From Nocardiopsis coralli (GTDB taxonomy: Bacteria > Actinomycetota > Actinomycetes > Streptosporangiales > Streptosporangiaceae), in contig NZ_JADBGI010000006.1 of assembly GCF_014892575.1 (NCBI RefSeq), positions 1-64,000 of the forward strand: a stretch of 64,000 nucleotides of DNA, given 5' to 3'. The translations under genes and the position numbers were made by a program. The notes below the pieces were generated by a model. That model did no database searches and had not been told where the DNA came from. It saw only the letters and a program-made list of their open reading frames with translations. Positions 42,702 to 52,056 of the stretch are shown piece after piece (the first letter of the stretch is position 1; each line of letters opens with the position of its first letter).

Positions 42702-42823
42702 TCAAACCACCTCGAAGGCGACGCTCCCCAAACCGGCGAAGCGCCCCTCCACCGTCCCGGGCCGATCCATGGGGACCGCGCGCAGGCAGCTGCCGGGCAG
42801 GATCACGTCGCCGGGTGCGAATT
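42702..42823 (-). pseudogene. 2-oxopent-4-enoate hydratase gene, 3' fragment
   Basis: This is the last part of a hydratase gene cut by the transposon. Reading from the target duplication it continues FAPGDVILPGSCLRAVPM and ends GSVAFEVV, the normal C-terminus of the MhpD/FAH-related family. Joined to 52057-52720 with one copy of GAATT it restores an unbroken 261-codon frame. On its own it has no start and should be silent. Confidence 0.92.
42819..42823. repeat. Target-site duplication GAATT, left copy
   Basis: GAATT directly abuts the GGGGT end of the left inverted repeat and is repeated at 52052-52056. Five-base duplications are the rule for Tn3-family insertions. Confidence 0.95.
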
Positions 42824-42877
42824 GGGGTGTCGGTAAGGAGCGTGTCACCAGGTGCCAAGTAACCCGCGAGTAACTTA
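42824..42877 (+). repeat. Left terminal inverted repeat
   Basis: 54 bp starting GGGGTGTCGGTAAGGAGCG. It matches the reverse complement of 51998-52051 at 52 of 54 positions; the differences are at repeat positions 20 and 28. GGGGT ends are typical of Tn3-family elements, though 54 bp is longer than the common 38. Confidence 0.95.
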
Positions 42878-42973
42878 CGGGTTCTCCGGACAACCAGCCC
42901 CAGCGCCCCGGAAGATCGTGGATAGCCGGGCGTACCGCTCGGCCAGGGACACGAGCGGGCAGGGGACGGTCGG

Positions 42974-45931
42974 GTGGCGCGTGATCTGGACCTGGACGAA
43001 CTCCTCGACGCCTTCACCCTCACCGCCGACGAGTTGAGGCTGCTGCGGAACAAGTCCGGGGCGACCCGGCTCGGGTTCGCGCTGACCCTGCGTTTCCTGC
43101 TCTGGCGCGGCCGGTTCCCGCGCGGCCGCGGTGAGGTGCCCGACAACGCCGTCGTCCACGTGGCCAGGCAGGTCAAGGTCGAGCCTTCCGAGATCGCCTT
43201 CTACGACTGGCAGGGGCGTTCGGCCAAGCGGAACCGCACCGAGATCCGCGAGTTCACCGGCTTCGGCGAGTGCTCGGTTCCCGACGCCGAGAAGGTCACG
43301 CTGTGGTTGGCCGAGAACGTGTGCGACCAGGAGCGCAACCCCGACCGGGTACGCCAGCGCCTGCTGGAGCACTGCAAAGAGGAGCTGATCGAGCCGCCGG
43401 AGAAGACCCGCATCGAGCGGATCGTGCGCTCGGCGCTGAGCCAGGCCGAGGATCAGATGATGGCCCGCGCGGTGGGCGAGGTGCCCGCCGAGGTCGTGGA
43501 GCGGATGCTCACGCTGATCGGTCAGGCCAGCGACGACCCCGACGAGGCGCCGGCGGCAGGGGAGGGCCCCGAGGTGTATGCGCGGATCAAGGACGCCCCG
43601 GGCAATGTCAGCCTCAAGACGCTGATCGCGGAGAAGACGAAGCTGGAAGCGGTGCGCGCTGTCGGGGTGCCGCACCGGGCCTTCGCGCGCCTCCCGGCCA
43701 CGATGGTGGCCGCGTGGCGGGACCGGGCCGCGGCCGAGGCTCCCTCGCACCTGCGCGGCCACCCGCACCAGATCAAGGTGTGCCTGCTGGGAGCGCTGCT
43801 GTTCTCACGTGAGCGGGAGATCACCGACACCCTGGTCGATCTGGTGATCTCGACCGTGCACAAGATCAACGCCCGCGCGGAGAAGGTCGTGACCGCCGAG
43901 TTCGTTCGCGACCTCAAGCGGGTCTCGGGCAAGGAGGACATCCTCTTCCGGATCGCCGAGGCGTCCGTGGGCTCGCCGGAGTCGCTGGTGCGCGAGGTGG
44001 TCTACCCGGCCGCCGGCGGTGAGCAGACGCTGAAGGACCTGCTGGCCGAGTTCCGGTCCAAGGGCACCAGCTACCGCCAGCACAAGCAGCGGGTGTTCAA
44101 GTCCTCCTACTCCAACCACTACCGCGTGGGGCTGCTCCAACTGCTGGACGTGCTGGAGTTCCACTCCTCCAACGACGTGCACCGCCCGCTGGTCAAGGCC
44201 CTGGAGCTGATCTGCCGCTACCGGGAGGTGGCCAACAACCGCCCCTACTACGACGCCGGTGAGCACGTCCCCGTCGACGGGGTGATCCCCTTCGAGCTGC
44301 GCGAGCTGCTGCACCGCACCGACCAGCGCGGCCGGGTGCGGGTGCTGCGCACCGTCTATGAGTGCGGGGTGTTCCAGAGCCTGCGCGAGCAGTTGCGCTG
44401 CAAGGAGATCTGGGTGGTGGGCGCGGACCGGTGGCGCAATCCGGATGAGGACCTGCCCGCCGACTTCGCGGACAAGCGCGTGGAGAACTACCGGAAGTTG
44501 AACCAGCCCCTGGATCCGGATGAGTTCATCGCGCGCCTGCGCGGCGACATGGTGACCGAGCTGGCCCACCTCAACGACGCGCTGCCCCGCCTGGGGTGGG
44601 TGGAGGTCGCCGAGCGCAAGGCGGGGGCGATCAGCCTGACGCCGTTGGAGGCGCGTGCTGAGCCGCGCAACCTGCGCAGGTTGAAGAAGGCGGTGCGCGC
44701 CAAGTGGGGTGTGGTCCCTTTGCTGGACATGCTCAAGGAGACCGCGCTGCGCACCGGGATGCTGGAGGCCTTCACCGGGGTCGGCACCCGCGAGGCCATC
44801 ACCACCGAGGAGCTGTGGGAGCGGCTGATCCTGGTGATCTACGCCTATGGCACCAACACCGGGCTGCGTCGGGCGGCTGCGGGCGAGCACGCCTACTCCG
44901 AGGACGACCTGCGCTACATCCGGCGCCGCTACTTCACCATCGAGGGGGCCCGGGGCGCCGCCCGCGCGATCGCCAACGCGACCTTCGCCATCCGCTCCGA
45001 AGCGCTCTGGGGGCAGGGGTCGACCGCGGTGGGGTCGGACTCCACGCATGTGAAGGCGTTCGACCAGAACCTGTTCACCGAGTGGCACTCGCGGTACGGG
45101 GGCCGGGGTGTGCTCATCTACTGGCACATCGAGGAGCGGTCGATGGCCGTGCACTCCCAGTTGCTGTCGTGTTCGGCCTCGGAGGTGCACGCCATGGTGG
45201 AGGGGGCGATGCGGCACGGCACCTCGATGAACGTGGAGGCCAACTACGTCGACTCCCACGGCCAGTCCGAGATCGGGTTCGGTATCACGCGGTTGCTGGG
45301 GTTCAAGCTGTTGCCGCGCATCAAGCAGATCAACCGGGTCAAGCTCTACCAGCCCGACCGCGGCGACCTGGAAACCTACCCGCTGTTGCGGCCTGCGATG
45401 ACCCGGCCGATCCGCTGGGACCTGATCGCCCAGCAGTACGACCAGATGATCAAGTACGCCACCGCGATCCGGCTGGGCACCGCCTCCACCGAGGCGATCC
45501 TGCGCCGCTTCACCCGGGCCGCCTCCCACCCCACCTACGCGGCGATGCTGGAGGTGGGCCGGGCCGAGAAGACCGCGTTTGCGGCGCGCTACCTGCGCGA
45601 TCGCGATTTGCAGTACGAGGTGGGGTCGGGGCTGAACGTGGTGGAGAACTCCCACGGCATCCACGGCGAGATCCTCTACGGCAAGACGGGGGAGCTGTCC
45701 TCCAACCGCCGCGAGGAGCAGGAGTTGACCATGCTCGCCCTGCACATCCTCCAGGCGTGCCTGGTGTATGTGAACACGCTGATGCTCCAGCAGGTGCTGG
45801 CCGAACCCGAGTGGGAGAACACGCTGACGGCCGAGGACCGGCGCGGGCTCACCCCGCTGTTCTCCTCGAACATGAACCCCTATGGCGACATCCGTCTGAA
45901 CATGGGCAACCGCCTGGCCCTGGGTGGATGA
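42974..45931 (+). CDS. tnpA: Tn3-family transposase TnpA
   Basis: A 985-aa DDE transposase, normal family length. The N-terminal half binds the terminal repeats (DUF4158-like, about 1-160). The catalytic acidic residues are visible in GSDSTHVKAF near 688, NYVDSHGQSE near 758 and the Glu of NRREEQELT near 914. GTG 42974 is the first plausible start after the left repeat, following GGGGAC. It reads inward from the left end, away from the right-end recombinase. No frameshift or stop is present, so it should be active. Confidence 0.96.
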   Translation: MARDLDLDELLDAFTLTADELRLLRNKSGATRLGFALTLRFLLWRGRFPRGRGEVPDNAVVHVARQVKVEPSEIAFYDWQGRSAKRNRTEIREFTGFGECSVPDAEKVTLWLAENVCDQERNPDRVRQRLLEHCKEELIEPPEKTRIERIVRSALSQAEDQMMARAVGEVPAEVVERMLTLIGQASDDPDEAPAAGEGPEVYARIKDAPGNVSLKTLIAEKTKLEAVRAVGVPHRAFARLPATMVAAWRDRAAAEAPSHLRGHPHQIKVCLLGALLFSREREITDTLVDLVISTVHKINARAEKVVTAEFVRDLKRVSGKEDILFRIAEASVGSPESLVREVVYPAAGGEQTLKDLLAEFRSKGTSYRQHKQRVFKSSYSNHYRVGLLQLLDVLEFHSSNDVHRPLVKALELICRYREVANNRPYYDAGEHVPVDGVIPFELRELLHRTDQRGRVRVLRTVYECGVFQSLREQLRCKEIWVVGADRWRNPDEDLPADFADKRVENYRKLNQPLDPDEFIARLRGDMVTELAHLNDALPRLGWVEVAERKAGAISLTPLEARAEPRNLRRLKKAVRAKWGVVPLLDMLKETALRTGMLEAFTGVGTREAITTEELWERLILVIYAYGTNTGLRRAAAGEHAYSEDDLRYIRRRYFTIEGARGAARAIANATFAIRSEALWGQGSTAVGSDSTHVKAFDQNLFTEWHSRYGGRGVLIYWHIEERSMAVHSQLLSCSASEVHAMVEGAMRHGTSMNVEANYVDSHGQSEIGFGITRLLGFKLLPRIKQINRVKLYQPDRGDLETYPLLRPAMTRPIRWDLIAQQYDQMIKYATAIRLGTASTEAILRRFTRAASHPTYAAMLEVGRAEKTAFAARYLRDRDLQYEVGSGLNVVENSHGIHGEILYGKTGELSSNRREEQELTMLALHILQACLVYVNTLMLQQVLAEPEWENTLTAEDRRGLTPLFSSNMNPYGDIRLNMGNRLALGG

Positions 45932-45976
45932 GACCGAGACGGTGTCCGGACCGGGTGCGGGAACCGGTGGGTGTGC

Positions 45977-46567
45977 CTACAGTCCGAAGGCGCCGCCCTC
46001 GATGAGGATGACCACACCCAGGACAATGAGGACCAGAGGCAGCAGGATGTGACCCCAGCGGCTGAGCGCGCGGGCGATGGGAGCGCGGGTGGCCAGGAAC
46101 TTGCCGGCCGCGCACAGCACACCGACCAGGATCAGAAAGACCGTCGCGTAGACGGCCAGACTGGCGTAGCCGACGGTGACGAAGACGGGGACGTAAACGC
46201 CGATGTTGTCGCCGCCGTTGGCGAAGGTGACGGTGGCGACGGTGAGCAGGGCCGGGCCGTTGTCGCTGTCGGGGGCCTCATCGTCGTCATCGCCGCGCCA
46301 CAGGTTCCAGGCCGCGCGCAGGCCCAGCAGCAGCGGCAGCAGCCCGAAGTAGGCGCGCACCTCCTCGGGCAGGAAACTCGCGCCGAAGGTGGCGGCCAGC
46401 GCGGCGGCCAAGATCGCGATGAAGCCCAGGTACTGCCCGGCCACGATCTTGGCGGTGGCCCCGCGGTGCCCGGCGCCTTGGGCGAAGAACAGCGCGAGCA
46501 CCACGATGTCGTCGATGTTGGTGAGGGCGAACAGGCCGGCCGCCTGGGCGATGATGATCAGGTCCAC
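45977..46567 (-). CDS. cadD: CadD-family cadmium resistance transporter
   Basis: A 196-aa membrane protein with about six transmembrane helices. ALTNIDDIVVLALFF near 14-28 and FANGGDNIGVYVP near 116-128 are the conserved acidic-residue motifs of CadD, related to LysE exporters. The acidic loop DDDDEAPDSD sits between the two halves. It would move Cd2+ out of the cytosol. GTG 46567 overlaps the lspA end. Last gene of the repressor-ATPase-LspA-CadD operon. Confidence 0.88.
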   Translation of the reverse strand: MDLIIIAQAAGLFALTNIDDIVVLALFFAQGAGHRGATAKIVAGQYLGFIAILAAALAATFGASFLPEEVRAYFGLLPLLLGLRAAWNLWRGDDDDEAPDSDNGPALLTVATVTFANGGDNIGVYVPVFVTVGYASLAVYATVFLILVGVLCAAGKFLATRAPIARALSRWGHILLPLVLIVLGVVILIEGGAFGL

Positions 46568-47073
46568 GGGTCGGAGTCCTTACCGGGCGGTGCCGGTGCG
46601 CCCTGGCGGGCGGACGTGAGCACGAGCAGTACCGCCCCTGCGACGATGAAGGCGTCGGCGAGGTTGAAGGTGGGCCACCAGCCGCTGTGCAGGTAGTCGG
46701 TGACCACACCGTCCAGGCCGCGATCGATGAGGTTGGCCAGCGCACCGCCCAACATCCCGGCCAGACCGACGCGGCCCGCGAGCGGGGTGGTAGGGGCGGT
46801 GCGCCAGGCGTAGGCGGCCACGGCGGCGGTGATGAGCCCGGTGAGGGCCACGATGACCCATGTGGGCATGCTCGCGCCCAGGCTGAAAGCGACGCCGGGG
46901 TTGTAGGTCAGGCGCAACTCCAGCAGCCCCAGGAGTTGTGGTCCGGGCCCGCCGGTCAGCCGGTCTTCGGCTAGGGCCTTCAGGGCCAGGTCGGCGGCTG
47001 TGAGTGTGAGGGCGGCGGCCAGCACGCCCCAACGGGGGAGCGTGCCGGCCGCAGTCGGTGTCGTCGGCCTCAC
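46558..47073 (-). CDS. lspA: LspA-type lipoprotein signal peptidase in a metal operon
   Basis: A 171-aa integral membrane aspartic protease. NPGVAFSLG near 69, GGALANLIDRGLDGVVTDY near 119-137 and FNLADAFI near 146 carry the conserved Asn/Asp residues, so both catalytic aspartates (VTDY and NLAD) are present. Extra lspA copies accompany lead and cadmium resistance operons (the pbr/cad type), where their role in metal handling is not fully clear. GTG 47073 overlaps the ATPase stop as GTGA. Confidence 0.92.
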   Translation of the reverse strand: MRPTTPTAAGTLPRWGVLAAALTLTAADLALKALAEDRLTGGPGPQLLGLLELRLTYNPGVAFSLGASMPTWVIVALTGLITAAVAAYAWRTAPTTPLAGRVGLAGMLGGALANLIDRGLDGVVTDYLHSGWWPTFNLADAFIVAGAVLLVLTSARQGAPAPPGKDSDPWT

Positions 47074-49043
47074 GCCGTCGCCCCCGCACGCTCGCGTGGT
47101 GCGGCGGTGGCGGGACCACCGGGAGCCAGTCCCAGGCGGCGGGTGCGTCCGGCGCGGATGCCGTTGCCGATGACCACGACCTCGGCCACCTCGTGCACCA
47201 GCACGACCGCGGCCAGGCCCAGGATGCCGAACAGGGCCAGGGGCATCAGGCCGATGATGATGGCCAGCGACAGTCCCACGCTCTGCCACATGATGACCCG
47301 AGAGCGGCGGGCGTGGCCCAGGACCTGGGGCAGGTGGCGCAGGTCCTCGCCCATCAAAGCGACGTCGGCGGTCTCGATGGCCACGTCGGTGCCCATGGCG
47401 CCCATGGCGATCCCGAGGTCGGCGGTGGCCAGGGCGGGTGCGTCGTTGACGCCGTCGCCGACCATCGCCACCGGGCCGTGTTCGCGTAGCTGGCCGACGA
47501 TGCGGGACTTGTCCTCGGGGCGCAGCTCGGCGTGCACGTCACCCGGATCGATGCCCGCCTGGGCGGCCAGGGTGGTGGCGGTGGCGTGGTTGTCGCCGGT
47601 GAGCATCACCACCCGGTAGCCCGCACCGCGCAGGGAGGCCACGACCTCGCCCGCCTCGGGGCGCAGCTCGTCGCGCACCGCGATGGCGCCCAGCAGCGCG
47701 CCGTCGTCCTCGACCAGGACGGCGGTGGCCCCGGCGTGCTGCATCCGCTTCACGTCCCCGGCCAGTGGGTCGGCCTCGATCCAGCCCGGTCGGCCCAACC
47801 GGACACTGCGGCCGTTCAGGGTTCCGGTGAGCCCGGCTCCGGTGACCGCCTCCACGTGCTCGGCCCGCTGGGGTGCGGGGGCGGCGGCCAGGATGGCGCG
47901 GGCGAGGGGGTGTTCGCTGCGCTCCTCCAGCGCGGCGGCCACCGCCAGTACCTGCTCTGCGGTGTGGCCGGGCGCCGGGGCGGTTTCGATGACGGCCGGG
48001 CGGTTGCGGGTCAGGGTGCCGGTCTTGTCCAACGCGACGGTCTTGACCCGGCCCATGGCTTCGAGGGCGGCGCCGCCCTTGACCAGGGTGCCGTGCTTGG
48101 AGGCGGCGCCGATCGCGGCGACCACGGTGACCGGGACGGAGATGGCCAGCGCGCAGGGGGAGGCGGCCACCAGCACGACCAGGGCGCGTTCGATCCACAT
48201 CAGCGGGTCACCGAAGAGCGCCCCGAGGGCGGCGATGAGGGCGGCGGCGATCATCACCCCGGGCACCAGCGGTTTGGCGATCTTGTCGGCCAGGCGCTGT
48301 CCGGCGCCCTTGCGGGACTGCTCGGCCTCCACGATGGAGACGATGCGGGCCAGGGAGTTGTCGGCCGCGGTGGAGGTGACGGTCACCTCCAGGACGCCGG
48401 TGCCGTTGATGGAGCCGGCGAACACCTCGTTCCCGGGTCCGGCCTCGACGGGGACGGACTCGCCGGTGATGGCCGAGGTGTCCAGGCTGGTGTGCCCGGA
48501 GGCGATACGGCCGTCGGTGGCCAGGCGCTCCCCGGGGCGCACCACCAGCGTGTCGCCCACGACCAGCTCGGCCGGGTCGACGGTGCGCTCGGTTCCGTCG
48601 CGCAGCACTCTGGCCTGGTCGGGGACCAGGTCCAGCAGGGCGCGTAGGCCGCGGCGGGTGCGGGCCACGGAGTACTCCTCCAGCCCTTCGGCGATGGTGT
48701 AGAGCACCGCCAGCATCGCGGCCTCGCCCACCTCACCCAACAGCACGGCGCCAACGGCGGCGATGGTCATCAGCGTGCCCACGCCGATCCTGCCCTTAGC
48801 CAGGCGGCGCACGGTGGAGGGGACGAACGTCCACCCCGCGACCGCCAGCGCGGCGGCCTTGAGAACCAACCCCACCAGGTCGCCGGCGCCGACCCAGCCC
48901 GCGCCGTACCCGGCCAGCAGCAGCGCCGCGGCGACGGCGGCGAAGCGGATCTCGCTCACCTGCCACAACGCCTCCGGTTCGTGCTCTTCGGCTGCTTCCC
49001 CTGCGCGGGGCTCGTCGCCACCGCATCCGCACGCGTCACTCAC
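47070..49043 (-). CDS. cadA: P1B-type heavy-metal ATPase (Cd/Pb/Zn exporter)
   Basis: A 657-aa pump. There is no HMA domain; instead the N-terminus is a short Cys/His-bearing tail (CGCGGDE, EEHEPE). Membrane helices, then TSAITGESVPV (actuator), the metal-binding SPCAL near 296, phosphorylated Asp in DKTGTLT near 340, and GDGVNDAPAL follow. SPC rather than CPC is seen in P1B-2 and P1B-4 pumps for divalent ions. GTG 49043 overlaps the repressor gene. It would expel Cd2+/Pb2+/Zn2+. Confidence 0.93.
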   Translation of the reverse strand: MSDACGCGGDEPRAGEAAEEHEPEALWQVSEIRFAAVAAALLLAGYGAGWVGAGDLVGLVLKAAALAVAGWTFVPSTVRRLAKGRIGVGTLMTIAAVGAVLLGEVGEAAMLAVLYTIAEGLEEYSVARTRRGLRALLDLVPDQARVLRDGTERTVDPAELVVGDTLVVRPGERLATDGRIASGHTSLDTSAITGESVPVEAGPGNEVFAGSINGTGVLEVTVTSTAADNSLARIVSIVEAEQSRKGAGQRLADKIAKPLVPGVMIAAALIAALGALFGDPLMWIERALVVLVAASPCALAISVPVTVVAAIGAASKHGTLVKGGAALEAMGRVKTVALDKTGTLTRNRPAVIETAPAPGHTAEQVLAVAAALEERSEHPLARAILAAAPAPQRAEHVEAVTGAGLTGTLNGRSVRLGRPGWIEADPLAGDVKRMQHAGATAVLVEDDGALLGAIAVRDELRPEAGEVVASLRGAGYRVVMLTGDNHATATTLAAQAGIDPGDVHAELRPEDKSRIVGQLREHGPVAMVGDGVNDAPALATADLGIAMGAMGTDVAIETADVALMGEDLRHLPQVLGHARRSRVIMWQSVGLSLAIIIGLMPLALFGILGLAAVVLVHEVAEVVVIGNGIRAGRTRRLGLAPGGPATAAPRERAGATA

Positions 49044-49419
49044 CGCGCACCTCCGTCATCGTCGTGCTGTCGGTTCCGTAGTTGGGGCACAGTGCGACCG
49101 CGCTGCCGGTCGCGGCCAGCAGGATCTCGGCCGAGGCCAGCAGGTCCAGCAGCTCGGGGCGGGTCAGGGAGTAGAACACCTGCCGTCCCTCGGGACGCCC
49201 GTCGACCAGGTTGCAGTCGCGCAGGCATGCCACGTGCTTGGAGATCGTGGACTGGGCCAGTCCCAACTGTTCCACCAGGTCGGACACCCGCGCCTCACCT
49301 TGGGCCAGGCGGCGCACGATGGCCAGCCGGGTGCCGTCGGAGAGGCTGTGGAAGAGCGCCTCGGCAGCGCCCAAGCCCGTAGTTGTGGCTACGCACTCAT
49401 CCGTGCCATTCATCGTCAT
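49036..49419 (-). CDS. ArsR/CmtR-type metal-sensing repressor
   Basis: A 127-aa winged-helix repressor. LFHSLSDGTRLAIVRRLA and LGLAQSTISKHVACLRDC show the HTH. Cysteines in ACLRDC (near 74 and 78) and in VALCPNYG (near 112) match the Cys trio by which CmtR senses Cd(II)/Pb(II). Cys10 in DECVATT may also join. ATG 49419 was chosen; a longer frame opens at 49470 but runs across the divergent promoter. It is divergent from a methyltransferase gene and should regulate both directions. Confidence 0.9.
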   Translation of the reverse strand: MTMNGTDECVATTTGLGAAEALFHSLSDGTRLAIVRRLAQGEARVSDLVEQLGLAQSTISKHVACLRDCNLVDGRPEGRQVFYSLTRPELLDLLASAEILLAATGSAVALCPNYGTDSTTMTEVRGE

Positions 49420-49432
49420 ATAGCGATCATAT
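49418..49432. promoter_or_regulatory. Possible AT-rich operator between repressor and methyltransferase
   Basis: ATATAGCGATCATAT is an imperfect dyad, strikingly AT-rich for this genome, in the 43-nt gap between the divergent ArsR and methyltransferase starts. ArsR proteins bind such dyads over promoters. It overlaps the repressor start codon. Confidence 0.4.
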
Positions 49433-49462
49433 CCCATGTTGGCGATGTTGAAAGGTGTGGGC

Positions 49463-50095
49463 ATGCTCATGAACCGCGTGGAGTCGGCGCTGATCGACTC
49501 ACCGCCCCGGCGCTGGTTGCAGCACTACGAGGCCGCAGTGCTGGTCGAACTGGGCGGGCGCACGCCAGGCGCCCACACCGCCGAGCTGGGATGCGGACCC
49601 GGATACGGCACCAAACTCATCCTGGACACCTTCGGCGCCGCGTCCGTGGACGCCGTGGACCTGGACCCCAAAATGCTGGCCAAAGCACGGCGCCGCCTTC
49701 AGCGCCACGGCGAGCGCGTCTACCTCGCGCGCGGCTCGGCCACCGACCTGGCCGCCGCCTTCGGCCCCATCGACGGCGGAAAGGACGCCTCCTACGACGC
49801 GGTGTTCGACTTCGCGATCATCCACCACATCCCGAACTGGAGAGAGGCCCTGGCCGAGGTCGCCCGCGTTCTCACACCGGGTGGCCGGTTCTTCTTCGAC
49901 GAGGTCACCGCCACCGCCCTGGCCCGCCCCACCTACAAGGCCCTGTTCGACCACCCCACCGCCGACCGGTTCAGCGCGGGCGAGTTCCTCGCCGAGCTGC
50001 CCCGCCACGGCCTGCACATCGGCGAGAACTGGCGCACCCGCATCGGTAGCGACTACCTCCTCGGCGTCGCCACCCGCACCCAAAAGGGCAGGTGA
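49463..50095 (+). CDS. SAM methyltransferase in the metal-resistance module
   Basis: A 210-aa class I methyltransferase. Motif I is AELGCGPGYGTK near 40-51, acidic loop VDLDPKM near 67-73, then FDFAIIHHIPNW and LTPGGRFFFDEV. The C-terminus is short, leaving little room for a large acceptor. It is divergent from the CmtR-like repressor and overlaps the next gene (GTGA), so it is probably metal-induced. Whether it methylates a metal, a lipid or a protein is unknown. Confidence 0.83.
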   Translation: MLMNRVESALIDSPPRRWLQHYEAAVLVELGGRTPGAHTAELGCGPGYGTKLILDTFGAASVDAVDLDPKMLAKARRRLQRHGERVYLARGSATDLAAAFGPIDGGKDASYDAVFDFAIIHHIPNWREALAEVARVLTPGGRFFFDEVTATALARPTYKALFDHPTADRFSAGEFLAELPRHGLHIGENWRTRIGSDYLLGVATRTQKGR

Positions 50096-50721
50096 GCACG
50101 ATGGCCATCACCGCACTGGTGCTCTACGGCGTCTTCATCGTCCTGACCGCGACCAAGACGCAACTCCAACGACGCCACGGCACCGACACCGGGATCCGAC
50201 GCCCGGCCAGCCCGCTGGCCTGGGCCGCCCGACTCCCGCTCGCACTGGGCAGCCTGGCCACCGGCGTCGCCGCACCCATCGCCGAACTGGCCGGCCTCAC
50301 GCCGCTGCCCGGCCTCGACCAGCCCGCCCTGCGCACCGCCGGCGCGGCCCTGGCCGCCCTGGGCGTGGCGGGGACCTTCGCCACCCAGCTCGCCATGGGC
50401 CAGGCCTGGCGAACCACACCCGATGAGACCGAACGCCCGCACCTGGTGACCGGCGGCCCGTTCCGCATCGCCCGCAACCCCATCTACACCGCCTACACCG
50501 CGATGTCGCTGGGCCTGGCCCTGACGGTCCCCAACCCCATCGCCGTACTCGGCGCAGCCGCCGTCCTCATCGGCGTTCAAATGCAGGTCAGGGCGATCGA
50601 GGAACCCTACCTGCGGCGCATCCACGGCGCCGCCTACTCCGGTTACGCCGCGCGCACCGGCCGTTTCCTGCCCGGGATCGGCCGCCTCACCGACCACACC
50701 ACCACGAAGGGACCCCGATGA
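50092..50721 (+). CDS. ICMT/PEMT-like membrane methyltransferase
   Basis: A 209-aa protein with about five hydrophobic segments. The C-terminal signature GGPFRIARNPIYTAY and EEPYLRRIHGAAYSGYAARTGRFLP-like sequence is that of isoprenylcysteine carboxyl methyltransferase and phospholipid methyltransferase relatives, which bind SAM in the membrane. GTG 50092 overlaps the upstream methyltransferase stop. It overlaps the next small gene as ATGA. Related proteins occur in actinobacterial metal islands; the acceptor is unknown. Confidence 0.82.
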   Translation: MSTMAITALVLYGVFIVLTATKTQLQRRHGTDTGIRRPASPLAWAARLPLALGSLATGVAAPIAELAGLTPLPGLDQPALRTAGAALAALGVAGTFATQLAMGQAWRTTPDETERPHLVTGGPFRIARNPIYTAYTAMSLGLALTVPNPIAVLGAAAVLIGVQMQVRAIEEPYLRRIHGAAYSGYAARTGRFLPGIGRLTDHTTTKGPR

Positions 50722-50852
50722 GCGGCTGCTGCACCCCGAGCGACCAGGACCCCACCCCCGAAGAAGAGCGCACCGGCACGATCGCGCTGGTCCTCGTCGT
50801 GGCCATCAGCGCCGCCACCCTGGTGGTCGTCGGCGCCTTCCTGCTGTCCTAG
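50718..50852 (+). CDS. 44-aa tail-anchored peptide with Cys-Cys head
   Basis: A very small gene overlapping the preceding stop (ATGA). The product begins MSGCCTPSDQDPTPEEE, so it has a vicinal Cys pair that could bind a soft metal, followed by acidic residues. It then has one hydrophobic helix of about 22 residues to the C-terminus (TIALVLVVAISAATLVVVG). This predicts a tail-anchored membrane peptide. Its place as last gene of the divergent metal operon supports a real gene. No family is recognised. Confidence 0.7.
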   Translation: MSGCCTPSDQDPTPEEERTGTIALVLVVAISAATLVVVGAFLLS

Positions 50853-50886
50853 GGCACGCATGAGGCATCGTGCGGCGCTGCGGGCC

Positions 50887-51933
50887 TCACCGGTCGACGG
50901 TGAGCACCTCCAGGGCGGCGGCCTTGTCGGCCTCGGTGGGCAGAGCGTAGCGGCGGGTGGTGTTGATGTCGGCGTGCCCCATCAACTCGGCCACGGTCAC
51001 CAGGTCCACCGGCTCCTTCGCCAGGTCGCCGCAGCCGCGCACCAGGTCGGTGCCGAAGGTGTGCCGTAGCACGTGTGGGCCGAACGCCTCCCCGTCGTCG
51101 CCCGGTCCGATTCCGGCCGCTGACCCCAACTCGCACACCACCGCGTTCGCCGCCCGCGTCGACAGCGCCTGGCCGTCGCGGTTGCGCACCAGCGGACCGG
51201 CAGCAGGGCGGCCGAGCTCGTCCAGGAGGAGTTCGAGGGAGGCGCGGGCCTCGGCGTGCAGCGGGACGGTGCGGTCCTTGCCGCCCAACCGTCCCTTGCC
51301 GCGCACCCGCACGCTGCCCCGGCGCGCGGACAGGCGGATGTCGGCCGCGTCCAGGGCGACGATCTCGGCGATGCGCAACCCCGTGTAGTAGGCCAGGTGG
51401 CAGATCACCCGGTCCCGGGCGGAGGCGTCGCGGGCCACGGTGCGCAGGAACCTCAGCTTGGCGCGGGCCTCGAGCGCGCGTGGAGCGCTGGGGCGGGCCA
51501 GGTGCTCGCGGACCACGTCGGGCCGTCCCGAGCCGCGCAGGGCGAAGAAGGCGTCGATGGCGGCGAGGCGGTTGTTGATGGTGGCCGCCGACAGGTGGGT
51601 TCCCCGGGCGGTGCGGGTGTTCTTCAACGTGCGGCGGTAGTCGCGCACCGCCCAGTCCCGCGCGGCCGCATCGCACAGCGGGTCGCCGTCCAGGGCGCCG
51701 GCCTCGCGCGCCTGGGCGAGCCAGGCCAGGAAGTGGGCGGCGTTGCGCCGGTACTTGTCGCGGGTGGCCGTCCCCAAATCGGTGGAGGCGGCCAGCTTCT
51801 CGCCGAAGGCGCGGTGTTCATCCGCCAGGTCGTCGGGCAGGTCGAGGGTTCGGCGCGGCCGGCCGGTGCGTGTGTTTCCAGAAGTGGAAACCGGGGGCTG
51901 TCCTCCGACAGGAGGTGTGTTTCCAGAAATCAT
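50887..51933 (-). CDS. Tyrosine recombinase, TnpI-like cointegrate resolvase
   Basis: A 348-aa site-specific recombinase. The SAM-like N-terminal domain is about 45-155. The catalytic residues are Arg in TGLRIAEI near 185, HxxR in HVLRHTF near 287-290, His in LMGHADINTT near 319 and the nucleophile Tyr in RRYALP near 328. Most Tn3 elements use serine resolvases; Tn4430 uses tyrosine TnpI, and this protein has the equivalent position at the far right end. ATG 51933 is the only ATG in range; codons 2-20 run through the motif copies of the putative resolution site, which implies autoregulation. Confidence 0.92.
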   Translation of the reverse strand: MISGNTPPVGGQPPVSTSGNTRTGRPRRTLDLPDDLADEHRAFGEKLAASTDLGTATRDKYRRNAAHFLAWLAQAREAGALDGDPLCDAAARDWAVRDYRRTLKNTRTARGTHLSAATINNRLAAIDAFFALRGSGRPDVVREHLARPSAPRALEARAKLRFLRTVARDASARDRVICHLAYYTGLRIAEIVALDAADIRLSARRGSVRVRGKGRLGGKDRTVPLHAEARASLELLLDELGRPAAGPLVRNRDGQALSTRAANAVVCELGSAAGIGPGDDGEAFGPHVLRHTFGTDLVRGCGDLAKEPVDLVTVAELMGHADINTTRRYALPTEADKAAALEVLTVDR

Positions 51934-51972
51934 GTCCTCAGGCTACTTCAGGGAACGCTGATTTCCAGAAGT
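51872..51972. promoter_or_regulatory. Putative recombination site with four TTTCCA motifs
   Basis: TTTCCAGAAGTGGAAA (51875-51890) is a perfect palindrome holding two inverted copies. TTTCCAGAA recurs in direct orientation at 51920-51928 and 51962-51970. This 2-inverted plus 2-direct arrangement, about 43 nt apart, is that of the TnpI internal recombination site of Tn4430. It overlaps the recombinase start. Confidence 0.72.
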
Positions 51973-51997
51973 ACGGGCATCCGCCGCAAGCGTCGAC

Positions 51998-52051
51998 TAA
52001 GTTACTCGCGGGTTACTTGGCACTTGGTGACGCGCTCCTTACCGACACCCC
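51998..52051 (-). repeat. Right terminal inverted repeat
   Basis: Reverse complement of the left repeat, 52 of 54 positions identical, ending in CACCCC next to the right GAATT. Confidence 0.95.
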
Positions 52052-52056
52052 GAATT
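52052..52056. repeat. Target-site duplication GAATT, right copy
   Basis: Second copy of the 5-bp duplication, directly after the right inverted repeat and within the hydratase reading frame (codons for V-E-F). Confidence 0.95.

Follow-up and report, generated by a model that had tools for sequence, protein, structure and literature searches.

In Nocardiopsis coralli, the gene for a soluble class I S-adenosylmethionine (SAM) methyltransferase, here called MT1, very probably belongs to the regulon of a CmtR-like metal sensor, judging from predicted operator sites. We analyzed a stretch of 64,000 nucleotides (RefSeq assembly GCF_014892575.1, contig NZ_JADBGI010000006.1, positions 1 to 64,000 of the forward strand), referred to below as the window, in which a Tn3-family transposon carries two divergent operons. 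An earlier note on the window, made from the sequence alone, had placed a CmtR-like repressor between an export arm (ATPase, LspA, CadD) and a second arm encoding MT1, a membrane methyltransferase (MT2), and a Cys peptide. All of these genes are present in that arrangement:

45977..46567, minus strand: CadD-like transporter gene (PF03596, 108 bits; cut-off 26.2)
46558..47073, minus strand: LspA-like signal peptidase II gene, GTG start (PF01252, 96 bits; cut-off 25)
47070..49043, minus strand: P1B heavy-metal ATPase gene, SPC motif, N-terminal CGCGG (TIGR01512, Cd family, 517.1 bits, above the cut-off of 313.5)
49036..49419, minus strand: CmtR-like ArsR/SmtB repressor gene (NF033788, 89.9 bits; cut-off 55)
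49404..49433, no strand: predicted 30-bp operator common to cmtR and mt1 (25.9 bits; core pattern 49410-49431)
49463..50095, plus strand: MT1, soluble class I SAM methyltransferase gene (PF13649/PF08241; relatives start at or near this Met; structure model with pLDDT 88.9)
50092..50721, plus strand: MT2, membrane methyltransferase of PEMT/ICMT type (start GTG 50092 or ATG 50101)
50718..50852, plus strand: 44-residue peptide beginning MSGCC; its single hydrophobic helix probably spans the membrane (hydrophobic window starting at residue 24)

Short overlaps of a few bases join cadD to lspA, lspA to the ATPase gene, the ATPase gene to cmtR, and mt2 to the peptide gene; mt1 and mt2 overlap only if mt2 starts at GTG 50092, not at ATG 50101. 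The predicted operator overlaps the start codon of the regulator gene and lies 29 nt ahead of the MT1 start.

Predicted operator and recurrence of the methyltransferase arm

We searched for operators with a 30-bp matrix trained on nine CmtR-promoter sites, which were chosen after looking at the sequences; the core pattern, TCATCG-N8-CGATNATA, was likewise picked post hoc. Elsewhere in the window no independent site reached 13 bits, and the highest score among 251,440 control positions was 12.4. When the matrix was built from only four of the training sites, none of them from Nocardiopsis or Streptomyces, the window site still ranked first, with a 2-base shift (49406, 19.5 bits); the next independent site scored 12.5 bits and the control maximum was 13.2. 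The N. coralli genome (6.4 Mb) contains the core pattern a single time. Across 16 genomes picked for carrying MT1 or MT2, we counted 25 occurrences, 22 of which fall in mapped MT1/MT2 loci, and the reversed-control pattern did not occur in those genomes.

Relatives of MT1 were collected from plasmids (8 of the 18 records with MT1 at 60% identity or more were fetched), 394 genomes of the class (matches in 9, N. coralli included), 34 MT2-bearing genomes (matches in 8), and the genus of genome G126 (248 genomes, matches in 27). We mapped 51 MT1 loci (labeled L with a number) by tblastn against reference proteins and grouped them into 40 clusters at 95% MT1 identity. In the cluster counts, a regulator is any tblastn match to the CmtR or CadC references. 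Considering the 31 clusters whose identity to MT1 is 55% or more, a regulator was found within 6 kb of MT1 in 28, a Cd-type ATPase or CDF exporter in 27, CadD in 13, and LspA in 11. At least one of regulator, pump, CadD, and LspA was near MT1 in 29 clusters, the exceptions being L010 and L125. MT2 followed MT1 on the same strand within 1 kb in 22 of the 31 clusters; eight have no MT2 inside 1 kb, and L071 has MT2 upstream. None of the reference genes was detected in 20 control windows from six mycobacterial chromosomes that also hold mapped loci (tblastn, E<=1e-6, after filtering). Given this null result beside the 28 of 31 clusters with a regulator, the gene layout exceeds chance.

Predicted operator sites accompany MT1 as well as the sensor. 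A site of at least 13 bits was present no more than 500 nt upstream of MT1 in 27 of the 31 clusters, and in 18 of 22 after we excluded the nine clusters whose upstream region contains a training site. There are nine clusters in which CmtR is in the locus and MT1 lies more than 1 kb from it, at a distance of 2 to 5 kb; in every one of them MT1 has its own site within 350 nt upstream (13.9 to 25.4 bits, weakest in L011 at 13.9). Among the three MT1 clusters in which we found no CmtR, none has an operator site. These patterns argue strongly for a place of MT1 in the regulon, and we infer that the CmtR-like regulator binds the predicted operator. Two observations weigh against this interpretation: in L104 the site lies at CmtR, before a cyclase-domain gene that precedes MT1, and not directly at MT1; and the matrix is useless in AT-rich DNA, where L017 and L018 gave many chance matches. 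Bacterial Cd/Pb resistance is usually described in terms of sensing, pumping, and sequestering. Because MT1 retains a predicted operator even when it is kilobases from the sensor, these data suggest that the response has a chemical branch as well.

Exact matches to the core pattern outside the mapped loci lie at G619:C1:711357, G619:C1:715853, and G594:C1:3982964, and there may be more regulon genes at these three positions.

MT1 accompanies CmtR/pump modules in Mycolicibacterium, Streptomyces, Gordonia, and Pseudonocardia as well. The description of the second operon in the earlier note as not a standard part is therefore not borne out, given the recurrence of MT1 in several actinobacterial genera, yet the arm is optional: two Rhodococcus CmtR-ATPase-LspA modules, that of pREL1 among them, have no methyltransferases. 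The further claim that the arm is part of the metal-resistance passenger stands on this recurrence and on the operators, whether shared with cmtR or separate. Absence from related elements, which the note had named as telling against the claim, was not what we found; the arm is present in related elements and islands, the two Rhodococcus modules being without it.

The sensor itself resembles CmtR in the residues expected to hold metal. The metal site of CmtR consists of C57 and C61, in the recognition helix, and C102. The best match of the regulator in the PDB is 2jsc (Rv1994c), whose SCLRGC aligns with ACLRDC of the regulator, so that both recognition-helix cysteines are matched. The cysteines of the regulator are C82, C86, and C128 (numbered in a 144-residue open reading frame), with the third outside the 2jsc alignment. 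Among the regulator matches at 55% identity or above (49, not de-duplicated), the motif [AS]CLR[DEN]C is present in 44, and 43 of these 44 have a third cysteine exactly 42 residues past the motif; in L109, which was read in part, the only cysteine is at 18. This cysteine arrangement is the pattern of the Cd/Pb site of CmtR, and Cd or Pb would be the inducer in this system. Rv1994c is CmtR, a cadmium and lead sensor, according to the accessible text of PMC10961391. The regulator scored 57.7 bits against the curated CmtR model NF047906, below its cut-off of 150, and for this reason we call it only CmtR-like.

Beyond the 31 clusters, nine more distant ones (37-50% identity to MT1) include two with a regulator, one with MT2, and none with an operator site. 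Five of the distant clusters (L070, L075, L110, L123, L076; 37-46%) have ATPases with a CPC motif at about 1.2 kb or less, again without the operator. The CPC motif is typical of copper pumps. These distant relatives are perhaps a parallel family for another metal, and their position beside CPC-motif ATPases suggests that the same family may be paired with different metals. On the Bacillus OF4 and Listeria pLIS4 plasmids, genes for an ArsR/SmtB regulator and a heavy-metal ATPase come directly after a relative with 32% identity to MT1 (L017 7001-10165, L018 7001-10103).

MT2 also occurs without MT1. We fetched 20 of 30 such places and added L007, which gives 21 loci (not de-duplicated). Eight of them contain a CmtR-like regulator (at least 43% identity), a CDF exporter, or a Cd-type ATPase; L077 and L096, in which a distant ArsR match (35-36%) stands alone, were left out of the eight. 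The CmtR and MT2 genes are divergent in L090, L092, and L093, with the predicted operator in the space between them. The remaining 13 loci showed no clear sensor or pump among the reference proteins, and so the MT2 family is probably not restricted to metal.

Candidate functions of the two methyltransferases

The profile-search relatives of MT1 include phosphoethanolamine and phosphatidylethanolamine N-methyltransferases, and also ArsM (5eg5, 8xt7), and its structural neighbors include UbiG and Coq5. Superposition on the PmtA structure 8ys9 gave TM-scores of 0.69/0.69, a level that many other class I enzymes reach as well; nothing is excluded by the lack of PmtA among the best 50 fold matches listed. 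The fold ranking of MT1 does not distinguish substrates. MT2 has the ICMT membrane fold and passes the PEMT domain model PF04191 (60.6 bits against a cut-off of 25), and it scored 40.9 bits against the curated ICMT model NF040696, below the cut-off of 160.

Tentatively, and with somewhat less than even confidence, we favor the second arm as a metal-induced envelope-protection module in which MT1 and MT2 would methylate a membrane lipid or lipid-linked group and not the metal. The CmtR-like repressor would occupy one common operator (49404-49433) for both arms, and binding of Cd/Pb-type ions to the repressor would release both the export arm and the MT1-MT2-peptide arm. The two enzymes would then methylate, for example, an ethanolamine phospholipid (by N-methylation) or a lipid-modified cysteine. 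The expected product is membrane methylation, which could keep the membrane and exported thiol proteins or lipoproteins functional while the pump clears the metal. We favor a lipid because MT2 combines the ICMT fold with PF04191, because hydroxylase and LspA genes are neighbors, and because MT1 has methyltransferases of the phosphatidylethanolamine type among its relatives. A fatty-acid hydroxylase match (PF04116 in L016) was found no more than 6 kb from MT1 in 11 of the 31 clusters, all of them mycobacterial and hence not independent. It is possible, if doubtful, that actinobacterial Cd/Pb sensors command a transposon-spread, two-enzyme branch (one soluble enzyme, one intramembrane) for envelope remodeling, with CzcN/NccN and the copA-linked ICMTs as distant parallels.

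The earlier note had proposed that the arm could methylate a metal, a thiol carrier, or lipids; of these, lipids are now preferred and direct methylation of metal has lost ground. Alkylation of a toxic metal to a volatile methyl-metal, as by ArsM, would suit the metal-island setting and the presence of ArsM among the MT1 relatives. ArsM binds As(III) through conserved cysteines. Among 40 aligned relatives of MT1, the only cysteine in a conserved column is C44, which belongs to SAM motif I, and five distant paralogues stand beside CPC-motif ATPases. Given the lack of conserved cysteines beyond SAM motif I, we rejected ArsM-like membership for MT1 and consider metal methylation very improbable. 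A small thiol, sulfide, or persulfide is a less remote candidate, if still an unlikely one: S-methylation by MT1 and MT2 could tune thiol-metal chemistry under metal stress. The membrane enzyme MddA methylates methanethiol, the superfamily of MT2 includes known thiol methylation, and sulfide-type genes (MBL-fold hydrolase, TauE, CsoR-type regulator, rhodanese) are found in several MT1 islands. The reference sulfide genes are, however, missing from the mapped element copies L003-L005 and from many other MT1 loci, and thiols blocked by methylation would leave fewer metal ligands.

Rather unlikely, in our estimate, is a protein or quinone substrate, such as the pump, the Cys peptide, an LspA-processed lipoprotein, or a respiratory quinone that metal stress damages or limits. 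The overlap of the peptide gene with mt2, the conserved MSGCC, the UbiG and Coq5 neighbors of MT1, and relatives of LspA, Lnt, ResB, TlpA, and DsbA in several islands are all compatible with such a substrate. The peptide is found only behind MT2 in the genus and family of the window's genome, so it is unlikely to be a general substrate. Finally, the arm could be a neutral passenger of the transposon with no role in metal resistance, given its place on a mobile element and the two CmtR-ATPase-LspA modules that manage without it. Recurrence in chromosomal and plasmid islands and the separate operator copies upstream of MT1 rule against a random passenger, and we give this explanation hardly any weight.

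The peptide lies downstream of MT2 in the element of the window and in L008/L067, L065, L066, and L089, in five distinct alleles. Conservation is concentrated in its N-terminal half (pN 0.05-0.15, pS 0.08-0.73, for nonsynonymous and synonymous differences, respectively), with MSGCC kept, and the C-terminal half is under little constraint. No Pfam family (at E<=1) or NCBIfam family matches the peptide, whose 44 residues are short for a profile. One more entry appeared in a large protein set (25 contigs, named from Nocardiopsis potens), and as far as detected the peptide is limited to the genus and family of the window's genome. We considered it as a lipoprotein substrate of LspA and rejected this, because the cysteines lie before the hydrophobic helix and there is no lipobox arrangement. 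It is also not PacL: there is no DUF1490 match, and the layout is opposite to that of PacL in the accessible text of PMC13043812, which gives an N-terminal transmembrane segment and Ala/Glu repeats. The peptide has an N-terminal CC, a C-terminal hydrophobic helix, and no such repeats. By analogy with PacL, our guess is that it might serve the pump or MT2 as a small membrane-bound partner.

Two sets of neighboring genes deserve mention. In L016 (5113-6885), MT1 and a hydroxylase match upstream of it are divergent and about 0.95 kb apart, with similar arrangements in L103, L106, L117, L119, L120, and L121. A gene for an HTH_18 regulator stands between hydroxylase and MT1 in L016, and a predicted operator is located in the gap before MT1, so mycobacterial hydroxylase and MT1 may be under common metal control. 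The sulfide-type genes recur in islands L011, L012, L068, L069, and L117, with rhodanese in L012.

Export arm and comparison with described systems

The export arm is ordinary, and its gene names hold to different degrees. The pump passes the general heavy-metal P1B model as well as the Cd-family model TIGR01512; its best solved relative in the PDB is 7qbz, titled 'Cadmium translocating P-type ATPase', which we take to be a P1B-4 structure. The other names hold only as likenesses, since NCBIfam cut-offs were missed, as described above for the regulator. The CadD-like protein scored 112.9 bits against the curated model TIGR00779 (cut-off 181.65), and the LspA-like protein scored 68.4 bits against TIGR00077 (cut-off 73.95). 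The latter retains the motifs NLIDR and FNLAD, which we take to be catalytic. The Rhodococcus plasmid pREL1 has CmtR, ATPase, LspA, and CadD in the same order as the export arm, without a methyltransferase arm.

ICMT-like genes in metal operons are also already in print, and four described systems invite comparison, each taken from the accessible text of the source. The cmtR-pacL2-ctpG operon of Mycobacterium tuberculosis, which responds to cadmium, likewise combines a CmtR-type ArsR/SmtB sensor, a P1B ATPase, and a small membrane protein; unlike the element described here, it is presented there without a methyltransferase, LspA, or CadD, and the word methyltransferase does not appear in that text (PMC13043812). 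CzcN/NccN of the czc and ncc systems is a membrane-bound ICMT-like protein whose function is given as unknown (PMC9045368, PMC7563307, PMC12193353; two of the three). As here, the gene adjoins Cd/Zn/Co efflux genes on mobile DNA, whereas czc and ncc use an RND pump and two-component control. The likeness of CzcN from pMOL30 to MT2 is weak (31% identity over 78 residues, E 2e-4). In Alteromonas and others, merR-copA-cupredoxin-DUF2933-ICMT islands contain copper-induced genes; they share with our element a P-type ATPase, a small protein, and an ICMT-family protein on genomic islands, but they involve copper and MerR, and no MT1 is named in that text (PMC8478169). The arsR-czcD-STE14-ompR operon of Cellulomonas sp. 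Y8 resembles some of the MT2-only loci in pairing an ArsR-type regulator and a CDF exporter with an ICMT-like gene, and as listed it has no MT1; its czcD was slightly repressed by Cd, and STE14 is mentioned a single time and was not among the four genes tested (PMC8832061).

Within the accessible parts of the open-license literature, we found no printed account that links MT1 to cadmium or to a CmtR regulon, nor any established function for the arm, in keeping with the suggestion of the earlier note that the route may be undescribed. The accessible texts of PMC7563307, PMC9045368, PMC8478169, and PMC8832061 likewise contain no tested enzymatic role for the ICMT-like genes of metal operons. A compact, mobile, sensor-linked gene pair in a cultivable genus makes the role of such genes directly testable.

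The Tn3-family transposon

Both operons are enclosed in a complete Tn3-family transposon of 9,228 bp (42824-52051), flanked by a perfect 5-bp duplication, GAATT; the earlier note did not mention this enclosing element. Its remaining features are:

42819..42823, no strand: left target-site duplication GAATT, identical to the right flank
42824..42877, plus strand: left terminal inverted repeat of the Tn3-family transposon, element end set by the duplication
42974..45931, plus strand: tnpA, Tn3-family transposase gene (NF033527, 720 bits, cut-off 500; PF01526)
50887..51933, minus strand: tyrosine recombinase gene within the transposon (PF00589, 92.7 bits)
51998..52051, minus strand: right terminal inverted repeat, partner of the left repeat, end set by the duplication
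52052..52056, no strand: right target-site duplication GAATT, matching the left flank

The genes thus run in the order tnpA, the leftward regulator-ATPase-LspA-CadD operon, the rightward MT1-MT2-Cys peptide operon, and the tyrosine recombinase gene. The inverted repeat pair 42813-42877/51998-52062 is 91% complementary. A single reference sequence for a serine recombinase had no match inside the mapped element copies L003-L005.

Three other Nocardiopsis genomes carry copies of the element at other insertion sites, with 96.8-99.96% identity. The copies in N. salina (L152, 99.91% identity, duplication TGGTT) and N. alborubida (L153, 99.96%, duplication CACTG) are full length, and that in N. metallicus (L154, duplication ATGTA) is more diverged, with 99.2% identity in the passenger part and 96.8% in the transposase part. 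A 10-kb cousin element in genome G111 (L066) is flanked by GAGTT. Membership in the Tn3 family is supported by the transposase, the terminal inverted repeats, and 5-bp duplications at all five of these sites. Because near-identical copies occupy different sites, each with its own duplication, the cassette has moved recently and has traveled as one unit.

Other metal-related genes lie close to two of the insertions. In N. metallicus, some 4 kb separate the element from a match to an ArsR-type regulator and a MerA-like match (L004, 13129-13620 onward). In N. coralli, a second P1B ATPase with 65% identity is encoded on the same contig about 20 kb downstream of the transposon, outside the window (G000:C56:70644-72584).

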